Shown here: positions 14,378-22,303 of the stretch, piece by piece | How the letters are laid out: every line of letters starts with the position of its first letter | How positions within the stretch are numbered: position 1 is the stretch's first letter | The notes under the pieces: model-generated | The model's input: the letters and a program-made list of their open reading frames with translations, nothing else | The model's database searches: none | Told to the model about the DNA's origin: nothing | Translations under genes and position numbers: made by a program | IMG/VR virus record: IMGVR_UViG_3300008110_000468 | Span: 1-22,303 of that record | Direction: 5' to 3' (one strand) | Source of the DNA: a virus | Length of the DNA: 22,303 bases

Positions 14378-15277
14378 ATGAGTATAGCAGTCAAAAAACC
14401 AGTCAATTATCTTAATAACAAAGACATTCTAAAAGAGATTCACCTAAGCAAAAATGCATATTGCACTTTCTTAGATAACGAAGTGGATCACCGATATGAT
14501 TTCATAGTAGATTTACCAACTGAGCCACTAGAAAAATCATTAGCATATGCATTAAAGCGTGATAATATCAGGCAAGCCAAAGAGACTAGGGCGGCACGTC
14601 TAAGTGCTGAGTTGGGCGAAAAGGATAGTGTTGATCCAAAAAAGATTCCTACTACCGATCTAGTATTTCGTGTAATGACTTGGGATCATGTTCCGGTTGC
14701 ACCAAAACAACCCAGAAAAGTTGATAAGAAGAAAACTGCAAAAGATATATTTGAATTTGAAGATGATAAAGATGAGATTTTTGCAGACCTAGAAGATCCT
14801 ACAACTGCTAAAGAAATTGATGACATGGTTCATGTCAAAGTAAATTTCCCACCATTCCAACATTTTAGATTAGATAGTACAAATACTTTTAAATGTATTG
14901 GTAAAAGTCATTGGATTGGTGACTTGGAAACCGGAGAGTTTAGCAAAGATCACGGCAACATTACCAATAAGTTAGCCCGTATGTACATTATGATGTGTGA
15001 AAAATACGCTATGAAATTCAATTGGCGCGGGTACACATATAATGACGAAATGCGTAATTCAGCCATTCTACAGCTTACATATGTTGGATTGCGATTCAAT
15101 GAAGCCAAATCTGCAAATCCATTTGCATACTACACAGCCGCAATTACTAATAGTTTCTGTCGTGTATTGAATAGTGAAAAACGAAATCAAAACATCCGTG
15201 ATGATATTTTAGAAATCAATGGGCTTAACCCAAGCTGGACTAGACAAGGAACGTCTAGTATGGTATACGAAGAATAA
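14378..15277 (+). CDS. 55: Late-transcription sigma factor gp55
   Basis: A 299-residue protein whose C-terminal third (about residues 195-290) is a sigma region 2 domain: GYTYNDEMRNSAILQLTYVG, ANPFAYYTAAITNSFCRVLN, and KRNQNIRDDILE. In T4, gp55 replaces sigma-70 on host RNA polymerase and, with the sliding clamp and gp33, recognises TATAAATA late promoters; the NATAAATA motifs in this window are its expected targets. T4 gp55 is 185 aa. Here a charged extension of about 190 residues precedes the sigma domain, including an acidic stretch near 125-140 and a conserved-looking KCIGKSHWIGDLETGEF block (172-188). The start has GGAG 4 nt upstream. Its stop abuts the stop of the convergent HNH gene with no bases between. 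Confidence 0.9.
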   Translation: MSIAVKKPVNYLNNKDILKEIHLSKNAYCTFLDNEVDHRYDFIVDLPTEPLEKSLAYALKRDNIRQAKETRAARLSAELGEKDSVDPKKIPTTDLVFRVMTWDHVPVAPKQPRKVDKKKTAKDIFEFEDDKDEIFADLEDPTTAKEIDDMVHVKVNFPPFQHFRLDSTNTFKCIGKSHWIGDLETGEFSKDHGNITNKLARMYIMMCEKYAMKFNWRGYTYNDEMRNSAILQLTYVGLRFNEAKSANPFAYYTAAITNSFCRVLNSEKRNQNIRDDILEINGLNPSWTRQGTSSMVYEE

Positions 15278-15904
15278 TTAAACATACTTCCAATTCATAT
15301 ATTTTTTATGGCAGCTGGAACATCTTTTAGATATAGTAGACGGATCTAAATTCAAAGATGTTGCGGCTTCCCTCAGTGAGGGGAAAAGTTTGTTTTCAAT
15401 CATAACCTGTTTTGTGGTTTTAGGTCTTTTACTCATCTTTTCTAAATATTCCAAATTTTTCCAAAGTAATTTGCGAAGTTCAGATTGTCTTTGCCTATGT
15501 TCAGAATTATCCCAAACCTTCTTTGCTCCCAAAGAAGAACGCAGTTTATTTTCTGGTTTGTTCATTTCTTCTGTCATATACTGTGCTCTAGCTTTTTTTA
15601 GCGTATCTATAGTTCTAGAATTAACTATTAAATCTCTTTTATGATTACTAGTTGTCCAAACAGAATATGCGACTATAGCATGAATCATTTTAGCTTTGGA
15701 TAGCCCTGTTGTCATTTTTACTAAAAGCAAATGACATATATAATGTTCACGTGGTGTTAATTTTACCAAATTTGATGATTCATTTGAACCACCCAAAGAT
15801 TTAGGTATGATATGATGTTTTTCAGTATATTTCGTTGTGTTTCGTTCTTTACCGCGATATACTATGTTATAATACCATGTAGAATATTTGTTGTCTAAAT
15901 ACAT
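15278..15904 (-). CDS. Free-standing HNH homing endonuclease
   Basis: A 208-residue protein. The N-terminal HNH nuclease has the HH pair at residues 30-31 (TEKHHIIPKSLGGSNESSNL), N45 and H54/H58 (PREHYICH), the beta-beta-alpha-metal fold that nicks or cuts DNA. The C-terminus carries a modular DNA-binding helix-turn-helix of the intron-encoded nuclease type: FPSLREAATSLNLDPSTISK (about residues 174-193). It is antisense to the flanking gp55 and gp47, both of which are whole, so it is an intergenic homing endonuclease and not part of an intron. AAGGAG lies 9 nt before the ATG. A late promoter and a hairpin precede it. Confidence 0.88.
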   Translation of the reverse strand: MYLDNKYSTWYYNIVYRGKERNTTKYTEKHHIIPKSLGGSNESSNLVKLTPREHYICHLLLVKMTTGLSKAKMIHAIVAYSVWTTSNHKRDLIVNSRTIDTLKKARAQYMTEEMNKPENKLRSSLGAKKVWDNSEHRQRQSELRKLLWKNLEYLEKMSKRPKTTKQVMIENKLFPSLREAATSLNLDPSTISKRCSSCHKKYMNWKYV

Positions 15905-19931: not shown

Positions 19932-20129
19932 GTTGTCAGTCCTCCTTGAGTTTGTACAGATTGTGCTGTGCTGACGGATCTGGAGTATGCGTGTTAGCAA
20001 TAACATGGAACACCGAGAAGGCAATCGGAAAAGCGAACCTTCAATGAGTTTATATCTCACTTTATCTTGCGGATATAAAACATGCGTTGTCGAAGAACCA
20101 AACTGAATTTGGTAGCTTCACTACAGTCC

Positions 20130-20137
20130 CATAAATA
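20130..20137 (+). promoter_or_regulatory. Plus-strand late-promoter motif (CATAAATA) without a clear gene
   Basis: CATAAATA is the only exact NATAAATA I found on the plus strand of this window. No convincing protein gene follows before the convergent gp26-like unit; the next plus-strand gene begins 1.4 kb away. Confidence 0.4.
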
Positions 20138-20228
20138 CTTTACAGGACAACCGGTGGCAAATAGTGACATAAAAAGTTAATTATTTGGGGAATAGATAAC
20201 AATGGATGACGGGCATGGCAAGTTACCA

Positions 20229-20253
20229 ATGGTAGTGCAATTTGCACTACCAT
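20229..20253. repeat. 12-bp perfect inverted repeat
   Basis: ATGGTAGTGCAA and its exact complement TTGCACTACCAT are separated by a single T. No T-run follows on either strand, so it is not a standard terminator. A one-base loop cannot close, so as RNA the innermost pairs would open; as DNA it could cruciform or bind a dimeric protein. Confidence 0.8.
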
Positions 20254-20322
20254 GGCTTCAAAGCGGCAATGTATCTCTAACTCAATAATCCTTTATGAAT
20301 ATCTAAAACAATACCGATTGTG

Positions 20323-20417: not shown

Positions 20418-20594
20418 TTAAAAGAATGGTAACTTGCTATTCTTAGTAGTCTCTAAGTTATCATCAATAATTTTAGATATGGTTTCTCGTTCTGAGATGC
20501 TAAGGTTTAAGATATCTGTGTAAGATATTCCACCTCTCATATACCACGCCATCCTCAAAGAATCCGACTTAATAGCGTTACATTCTTTATCCAT
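20418..20594 (-). CDS. 58-codon downstream frame of the gp26-like gene (probable -1 frameshift extension)
   Basis: The frame starts at ATG 20594 and ends KLPFF. It contains SDSLRMAWYMRGGISYTDIL, a pattern I associate with small proteins next to gp26 in marine T4-like phages. There is no ribosome site at a proper distance; the nearest GAAGG is about 20 nt away and lies inside a hairpin. The same frame is open a further 18 codons upstream to the end of the gp26-like gene, where a slippery site would place ribosomes in it. It is therefore best read as the C-terminal part of a fusion, although separate translation from the ATG is possible. Confidence 0.75.
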   Translation of the reverse strand: MDKECNAIKSDSLRMAWYMRGGISYTDILNLSISERETISKIIDDNLETTKNSKLPFF

Positions 20595-21466
20595 GTTTTC
20601 AATAAGACTTGATACACCTTCGGAATCAAGTGTAAGAAGTCTTAGTCGAAAAAATCAGTAACATTAACACTGAATGGTTGTTCGTATCCGTGACCACAAT
20701 GAACACATGTTATTTTTAACGGTTTGTTTTCTGTGCTTCTGCGTAAGGTTACACTATGTTCTTGTACGGTATCATAAGTTTTCTTGTCACATTGAGTTAA
20801 GAACTCAAATATGAATTGATTTTCAAATACAGTAGCTGTGGGTACTCTCATGTATTCAATAGTTGATGCAACTAATTTCATAGTCATCTGATTAATTTCT
20901 AGTAATAATTCACTACCTTTTGCATCTCTACTAGTGTCATCTTCAATTTTAGATAGCATCTGCAAAGCCTTCTGTACGTGAAATTGTGCCAATGTAGCTT
21001 CATTCATTTCGCTAAATTTCAATGGTTTAAACTTAAACGTAATCTCACCAATTATTAATGGTTCGTTATAGTTTCCGGGTTTGAAATCGGCTAATACCCC
21101 TGATAGATTCAAATCGTATTTACCAGTTTCTTTGCATTCAGGGCAGTCAGTTTCTATTTCCATATTGCTACCATGGGTAGCGGCACGTATTGCAACTAAT
21201 ATAGGATCTATATCTACATTAGATAGTTGCCATGGATCTTTGATATTAGGAATACAGCTTTTTATTACCTCTACTACAGCAGTGCCATTGAACAATGCAT
21301 CAGGGGTTCTGCTAGTAATCTCATCAATAGCAGTCATTGGATACACGGGTAATTCTCCGGTATCAGGCATATCTATAGTTCCTTCTGGATATCCTAGTCC
21401 CCCGCTGGGTAATTTTAGATAAACGGCCGGTCTACGGAAATACTGCTTTAGTGGATTGTCTGACAT
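20418..21466 (-). CDS. Predicted -1 frameshift fusion product (gp26-like + 58-codon frame), 349 aa
   Basis: Ribosomes slipping back one base at T TTT TTC (20654-20648) would read residues 1-273 of the gp26-like protein, then 18 linker codons (RLRLLTLDSEGVSSLIEN), then the 58-residue segment, ending at 20418. No stop interrupts this path. In lambda and many other long-tailed phages a rare -1 slip makes a G-T fusion, and both G and G-T chaperone the tape-measure protein. Here a tape-measure-like gene is the immediate divergent neighbour. The fusion is a prediction; no protein data were available. Confidence 0.65.
20603..20654 (-). promoter_or_regulatory. Programmed -1 frameshift signal: slippery TTTTTTC plus downstream hairpin
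   Basis: On the minus strand the end of the gp26-like gene reads GAT TTT TTC GAC TAA. T TTT TTC (20654-20648) fits the X XXY YYZ rule in the zero frame. After a 3-nt spacer comes an 8-bp stem TAAGACTT/AAGTCTTA (20644-20637 with 20610-20603), a small CT/TC internal loop, and an inner TACAC/GTGTA stem (20634-20630 with 20617-20613). The zero-frame stop lies at the base of the stem. Confidence 0.7.
20642..21466 (-). CDS. 26: gp26-like baseplate hub assembly / tail assembly chaperone protein
   Basis: A 274-residue protein of the gp26-like family of marine T4-like phages; T4 gp26 (208 aa) is needed to assemble the baseplate hub but is not found in quantity in the virion. Two cysteine pairs, CPEC (108-111) and CVHC (254-257), look like a split zinc ribbon, an ancient gp26-family trait rather than a catalytic site. 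The N-terminus (KQYFRRPAVYLKLPSGGLGY) and the SNVDIDPILVAIRAATHGS segment are typical. AGGAG lies 5 nt before the ATG. The last codons hold a frameshift signal leading into the 58-codon frame. Orthology to T4 gp26 is by family resemblance; a chaperone role is inferred from the frameshift and from the neighbouring tape-measure gene. Confidence 0.8.
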   Translation of the reverse strand: MSDNPLKQYFRRPAVYLKLPSGGLGYPEGTIDMPDTGELPVYPMTAIDEITSRTPDALFNGTAVVEVIKSCIPNIKDPWQLSNVDIDPILVAIRAATHGSNMEIETDCPECKETGKYDLNLSGVLADFKPGNYNEPLIIGEITFKFKPLKFSEMNEATLAQFHVQKALQMLSKIEDDTSRDAKGSELLLEINQMTMKLVASTIEYMRVPTATVFENQFIFEFLTQCDKKTYDTVQEHSVTLRRSTENKPLKITCVHCGHGYEQPFSVNVTDFFD

Positions 21467-21529: not shown

Positions 21530-22303
21530 ATGGCCGATATTTCTCCTGAACAACAAGACTCGTTTAACCGATTTATGGAATCAGTTACTGAGGCACAGGT
21601 ACGCCTTACTGTAGCTTCAGCGACCATCACTACATCTTCAACTAGCATATCTGACAGTTTGTTTAAAGCAAGAGGAGATTTAAACAAACTATCTGACGCA
21701 TTAAAAATCAGTACTGTAAATTTAGGAAATCTTGCAACTGCGCTTGGGGAGCAGGCAGAAAATACTAAAAAAGCATCTGAAAATGTTGAACAAGCATTTG
21801 AAAATGTAGCAAAGTCTGCCGGTAATGTAAATTTTGGTAATTTAAATCAAAGTACTATCGCAATGGTGGAAGCATTCAGCAAATTGACTGGAACCACTCA
21901 TGACCAAAGTGTTGCAATGTTATCTGCTAATGGTACATTAAATGCGTTTGGATTACACCAAACGGAAGTGTTAGAGTTAGTAAAGATTGAAAAAGAATTA
22001 AAAGAGAAAGCAGATAAACTTAGAGCCTCATTTGATCAATTTGCAACTACACTTGGTAGTGCTGGCATAGGAATGTTCAAAGCATTAAACAAAGCTGAAA
22101 CAGGTACTGGCAAATATGCTGATAGTGTAGAAAAAGCAGCCGGCGCCACGGCAGATTGGTTAGGTTCATTTGGCCCATTAGGCAAGATTGTTGGCATGTT
22201 GGTCAACGTTATGGGCACGTTAGTAGGAGAAAGCCTAAGACAGAACGATGCACTTGTTAAAACTTATCAATCACTATCTAAGATTGGTCAAATTGACAGT
22301 ACA
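21530..22303 (+). CDS. Tail tape-measure-like protein, 3' end outside window
   Basis: The first 258 residues of a longer protein that runs off the right edge, beginning MADISPEQQDSFNRF. It is almost wholly helical and rich in Ala, Ser, Thr and Lys, with heptad-like patterns (about 55-100 and 150-170) and a hydrophobic Gly-rich stretch (about 206-235: WLGSFGPLGKIVGML). This is the composition of tape-measure or gp29-like hub proteins. The divergent neighbour is a gp26-like gene with a frameshift signal, the usual partner of a tape-measure gene. No clear ribosome site precedes the ATG. A different long helical structural protein is possible, since the diagnostic length is not visible. Confidence 0.6.
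   Translation, partial: MADISPEQQDSFNRFMESVTEAQVRLTVASATITTSSTSISDSLFKARGDLNKLSDALKISTVNLGNLATALGEQAENTKKASENVEQAFENVAKSAGNVNFGNLNQSTIAMVEAFSKLTGTTHDQSVAMLSANGTLNAFGLHQTEVLELVKIEKELKEKADKLRASFDQFATTLGSAGIGMFKALNKAETGTGKYADSVEKAAGATADWLGSFGPLGKIVGMLVNVMGTLVGESLRQNDALVKTYQSLSKIGQIDST

Follow-up and report, generated by a model that had tools for sequence, protein, structure and literature searches.

The window analysed here is the whole 22,303-nt stretch of the viral contig IMGVR_UViG_3300008110_000468, whose minus strand carries a gp26-like gene that ends in a candidate programmed -1 frameshift site. This gene, an ORF running from 21466 to 20642 (-), matches PF12322 (E 4.9e-17, 62.8 bits for a cut-off of 24.5) and phrog_150 (E 3.2e-18), both of which T4 gp26 and T4 gp51 match as well. 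By direct reading, the gene ends in ...GTT ACT GAT TTT TTC GAC TAA..., and the following features were delineated around this end:

20642-21466, minus strand: gp26-like gene, 274 aa, predicted short form (TAC-N), from PF12322 (T4_baseplate) and phrog_150
20654-20648, minus strand: slippery heptamer T TTT TTC in the zero-frame register, from sequence reading and conservation in homologues
20644-20642, minus strand: zero-frame stop TAA, one codon (GAC) past the heptamer
20603-20644, minus strand: hairpin with an 8-bp outer and a 7-bp inner stem, probable frameshift stimulator, from shuffles and synonymous-codon nulls
20418-20648, minus strand: -1 frame of 76 codons and a stop, open in every homologue that covers it, with purifying selection, an AlphaFold2 model and a profile match to gp51
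21530-22303, plus strand: start of a divergent, long and fast-evolving ORF that runs off the window, candidate tape measure protein, from homology to the neighbours in relatives

AlphaFold2 predicted a mixed fold for the gp26-like protein (pLDDT 88). Foldseek gave no significant match in the PDB, and no tail assembly chaperone (TAC) stood clear of noise in a second structural comparison; HK97 gp13 (2ob9), aligned with gp26 residues 1-104, gave a Z of 5.8 over 88 residues at 6.2 Å, which is noise level. The partial ORF 21530-22303 on the other strand is homologous to the 650-830 aa neighbours of gp26 in relatives, many of which are homologous among themselves. The peptidoglycan hydrolase domains of these neighbours vary, with VanY in locus L005, a transglycosylase SLT domain in L009 and an endolysin-like stretch in L004. 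Varying domains of this kind are typical of tape measure proteins. None of the tape-measure family models matched the divergent neighbour; from its homologues and their domains it is likely to be the tape measure protein. One could accept the frameshift and still take gp26 for a structural component of the baseplate hub rather than for a tape-measure chaperone, as databases label the family 'baseplate hub' and genetic studies support the presence of gp26 and gp28 in the hub (PMC3004832). However, the same source places T4 gp26 and gp51 among the chaperones of hub assembly, the record of phage Stupor already calls both of them tape measure protein assembly chaperones, and the gene adjoins a tape-measure-like gene. 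We regard a structural role in the hub as improbable and favour the predicted chaperone role.

The surroundings of the gene hold further elements. A conserved structured RNA of about 185 nt (20007-20190, +) lies within a conserved non-coding stretch at about 19940-20290, between the -1 frame and a RusA-like gene; it is downstream of the latter and on the same strand. In an alignment of 20 sequences it comprises 41 pairs in 6 helices, 29 of which (29/41 pairs) changed on both sides, and 98.4% of the cells pair as compared with 81.5% after shuffling, no slid version coming close. With a covariance model, 25 of 52 searched loci gave hits to this RNA of about 1e-39 or better, as did each of the 80 pattern loci examined, of which two are truncated at a contig end. 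At least 100 large-phage contigs carry the RNA, which is thus common among viral contigs. No credible match was found in Rfam, nor any match by blastn in 50,697 cultured phage records; the RNA possibly represents a new class and is arguably more novel than the frameshift. Between convergent genes, a perfect 12-bp palindrome, GGTAGTGC..GCACTACC (20229-20253), is nearly invariant in relatives; it lacks a T-run and is a possible bidirectional terminator. Elsewhere in the window, a gene for an HNH-type homing endonuclease (15278-15904, -) adjoins the late sigma factor gene (14378-15277, +).

A first, sequence-only reading of this DNA had placed a T TTT TTC heptamer in register one codon before the zero-frame stop, followed by a 3-nt spacer, an 8-bp outer stem and a stop-free path of 18 codons into a 58-codon frame devoid of its own ribosome site. 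All these elements are found in the letters as described. A scan of viral contigs gave 56 homologues, with identities of 32-100%. The run of six T at the end of gp26 was in register in 56/56 of these homologues and in 39/39 members of a non-redundant set that takes in five cultured jumbo phages; in the latter set none of the six T varies, and the heptamer ends in C in 38 members (TTTTTTC) and in T in one (TTTTTTT). This conservation exceeds chance, because Phe codons elsewhere in these genes are mixed (264 TTT versus 113 TTC) and a Phe-Phe pair is almost absent. The distance from the heptamer to the zero-frame stop is one codon in most homologues and reaches 10 codons in a few, so that the fixed element is the heptamer and not the stop. 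A second set of loci was assembled with the pattern of the neighbouring, unrelated RNA, which fetched at least 119 loci; a gp26 gene was present in 102 of the matches listed. Among these listed gp26 loci, 101/102 displayed TTTTTTC, a stop one codon further on and a -1 frame 60 or more codons long. The two sets overlap in part: the second is independent by the choice of its marker, though not in every member. The sequence-only reading had also considered that relatives might keep the frame and lose the T-run, or carry the 58-codon frame in another register or away from gp26; in the homologues, the T-run is invariant and the frame lies beside gp26 in the same register.

Downstream of the heptamer, the spacer GAC (20647-20645) is followed by an outer stem of 8 bp formed by TAAGACTT (20644-20637) with AAGTCTTA (20610-20603). 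The inner stem announced by the first reading does exist, but the minimum-energy fold gives it 7 bp instead of 5. The segment 20650-20575 folds at -21.3 kcal/mol, compared to a mean of -10.6 kcal/mol for dinucleotide shuffles (z -4.5), and none of 200 shuffles was as low. RNAalifold found no consensus hairpin in the frameshift region, as the position of the stems shifts by about one column from member to member, and we therefore used a null computed for each sequence separately, in which the -1 protein is kept and synonymous codons are shuffled. All 23 members of the window's clade proved more stable than at least 95% of their synonymous nulls (mean z -3.37, as compared with -0.50 for downstream controls), while 7 of 16 distant members passed the same test (mean z -1.22). 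The expected conservation of the hairpin thus holds in the window's clade but does not extend to the distant members, which keep the heptamer without a consistent hairpin. Pair counts taken in one fixed register were modestly above controls, again because the stem slides, and some covariation is synonymous on both sides, such as a G-C to A-U change between columns 15-49 of alignment A2 (codons read by eye). Judged by these nulls, the hairpin of the window's clade is selected beyond protein coding and is a probable frameshift stimulator; we have not seen it described before.

The conserved poly-T run would also suit transcriptional slippage, in which RNA polymerase inserts or omits a U while copying the six T and the edited mRNA is read in frame, a process used productively elsewhere, for instance at nine Ts in Thermus dnaX (PMC5009743). 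Yet high-frequency cases are reported at runs of nine (PMC5009743), whereas here six T and a C are held in a single register, in the X XXY YYZ phase of tandem tRNA slippage, in 38/39 non-redundant homologues, and a hairpin selected beyond the protein suits a ribosomal stimulator. Slippage of the polymerase is accordingly very unlikely in our view, and we favour slippage of the ribosome.

The -1 frame is free of stops from 20648 down to its own stop at 20420-20418. Its first ATG, at 20594, has 18 codons before it and opens the 58-codon frame, and no Shine-Dalgarno-like sequence was found ahead of this ATG. In the viral-contig homologues long enough to show it, the -1 frame spans 76-78 codons; it is usually closed within a few codons 5' of the heptamer, its conservation starts right at the heptamer, and neither a conserved start codon nor a consistent ribosome site was found for it across the homologues. 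Close pairs revealed purifying selection on the -1 product, with dN of 0.012-0.054 versus dS of 0.15-0.83. That the 58 codons form a separate small gene, expressed by re-initiation or coupling, finds support in the ATG at 20594 and in GenBank annotations such as 121Q gene 595 and Phosso 319, but is hardly credible, since, besides the lack of a consistent ribosome site and the onset of conservation at the heptamer, the first usable start in L056, L024 and L004 comes much later, at the core motif or within it, PA5oct has no start in the first 150 nt, and both parts are fused in frame in one relative (G001, see below).

The -1 frame had no match in Pfam and no significant match in PHROG. AlphaFold2 predicted an all-helical domain of four helices (pLDDT 89). 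T4 gp51 consists of a gp26-like domain with about 50 additional residues, and its C-terminus could be aligned by profile comparison with the cyanophage-type -1 frames, a group of cyanophages, Schizotequatrovirus, Ackermannviridae and others, at 95.9% probability (E 5e-9). Direct comparison of the -1 frame of the window's clade with the gp51 C-terminus by hhalign was weak, at 38% probability and E 3e-4, and so was that with the cyanophage-type frames, both links lying at 34-38% with E about 4e-4; the weak alignment centres on the stretch around I-x-Y-x-(D/E)-I-x-N-(M/L)-x-x-x-ER. The -1 frame of the window may thus correspond to the C-terminal region of T4 gp51, a relation that is weak when compared directly and strong through the cyanophage-type members.

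Taken together, these data argue that the shift at T TTT TTC would yield a short gp26 and a 349-residue fusion, forming a TAC-N/TAC-NC pair; we infer the slippage, its efficiency and the chaperone function from the comparison of homologues, and give this reading a probability of about 90%. The original proposal, that a programmed -1 shift provides the gp26-family chaperone in two lengths, is strongly supported by this comparison. Most ribosomes would stop at 20644-20642 and release the short protein, TAC-N. A fraction would slip back by one base at T TTT TTC, the two phenylalanine tRNAs re-pairing on TTT TTT, and in this clade the hairpin 3-7 nt downstream would aid the slip. Slipped ribosomes would read 76 further codons, so that the product, TAC-NC, should consist of gp26 residues 1-273 joined to the -1 frame and end in a helical tail that would correspond to the C-terminal part of gp51. 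By analogy with lambda gpG/gpGT (PMC5009743), the short form would be abundant and coat the tape measure protein (probably the divergent neighbour), and the long form would be rare and recruit the tail-tube subunits. Two forms sharing their N-terminus are predicted from the shift; separate long and short genes are present in T4-type phages and in G001. The predicted hairpin-stimulated slip site offers a defined point at which the chaperone ratio could be measured in large phages.

The same layout is widespread among phages in culture. The heptamer T TTT TTC, followed by an open -1 frame, was found in Phosso, Atu_ph07, PA5oct, RaK2, 121Q, Serratia BF, SCTP-2, the cyanophages Sf-FS3 and MbCM1 (Kyanoviridae), Vibrio VH7D (Schizotequatrovirus), Aeromonas phiAS5 (Chrysonvirus) and Rhizobium IC12, and basal Straboviridae also carry it. 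The slip site varies to T TTT TTG in RHph_Y68 and to a run of seven T in XacN1. Weaker sites occur in Ackermannviridae, in Vibrio K444 and in Cygsa01: the Ackermannviridae PhiSH19 (L081), RC-2014 (L082) and MDA2066 (L083) share the gene layout and have an open -1 frame behind a non-canonical ATT TTC ATT TAA, and Vibrio K444 (L079) has the same layout and an open -1 frame with a non-canonical C TTT TTG. A tblastn search with the -1 frame retrieved only Atu_ph07 (two records) and Phosso among cultured phages, the others being found via gp26. None of the GenBank records examined annotates a joined CDS across both frames; the -1 part is omitted, called hypothetical or named 'baseplate hub assembly catalyst', and the annotation of the whole family can be corrected on this basis. 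In T4, Aeromonas 31 and Acj9, genes 26 and 51 are divergent and gene 26 has no slip site.

The sole exception among the 102 gp26 loci listed for the RNA pattern is G001 (contig IMGVR_UViG_3300047548_000628, 147.6 kb; locus 60234-62174, L217), in which the slip site reads TATTTTCGG and is destroyed. There, gp26 and the tail domain form one ORF of 357 codons, and directly behind it lies a second gp26 copy, an ORF of 289 codons ending in ...DINVNSI, with neither the Phe-Phe slip nor the tail domain; each of four other large contigs searched holds a single gp26 copy. A homopolymer assembly error is unlikely, as the T-run is interrupted by another base rather than just shorter, and gp26 is present twice. 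Both copies sit on long branches within the window's family in the tree; of the two, the short one joins the window's subclade (97/95) and no placement was resolved for the long one. As read from its genes, G001 is the T4 arrangement, a fused long gene with a short paralogue, arrived at a second time. We have not seen this second, independent gene split described before, and it can be read as a natural experiment that points to a need for both lengths.

A tree of the domain common to these proteins unites T4-type gp26 and gp51 in a single clade (95/89) that stands beside Schizotequatrovirus and Chrysonvirus (90/90) and is nested among the frameshifters under a midpoint root. We consider it probable that the -1 shift is the ancestral route to the gp26-family chaperone pair in T4-like and jumbo phages, and that a short gene plus a fused long one took its place on two or more independent occasions, once in the T4 lineage of Straboviridae and once within the window's own family, in G001, where the loss of the slip coincides with a second copy and with fast divergence of both. 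An ancestral frameshift replaced by duplication is the simplest reading of a tree rooted by midpoint only. Our findings fit an origin of T4 gp26 and gp51 as the two halves of a gene that was once frameshifted.

The frameshift of the gp26 family had initially been thought undescribed, which is not so. According to papers that cite them, Vladimirov et al. 2022 identified the chaperone genes of T4-like phages (PMC10885494, PMC12846349); of these citing papers, one mentions that, in place of a frameshift, some T4-like phages have two genes, a short one and a long fused one (PMC10885494), and the other poly-T slippery sites in their TAC-N genes (PMC12846349). The mechanism is thus already known in tailed phages, and our comparison supports it for this group of large phages. 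In the chaperone locus of Vandenendeviridae and Andersonviridae (phage Adele, PMC12846349), a -1 shift likewise takes place at a poly-T at the end of TAC-N, and all genomes keep the -1 frame free of stops, usually under a wrong annotation, but the motif is GTTTTT and the chaperone gene is upstream of the tape measure gene. Lambda gpG/gpGT, the G-T proteins of siphophages and P2 E/E' also provide short and long products through a -1 shift near the 3' end, linked to the tape measure, as predicted here; the likeness drawn here is one of layout, and unlike in lambda, the site is T TTT TTC with a hairpin and the gene and the tape-measure candidate diverge instead of following one another directly. 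A further close counterpart is T4 gp26/gp51 (PF12322), whose gp26 domain is homologous and whose gp51 combines a gp26-like domain with an extension that would correspond to the -1 product; T4 and its close kin, however, use two divergent genes without a slippery site, whereas the phages described here would obtain both proteins from one gene and a conserved -1 shift.
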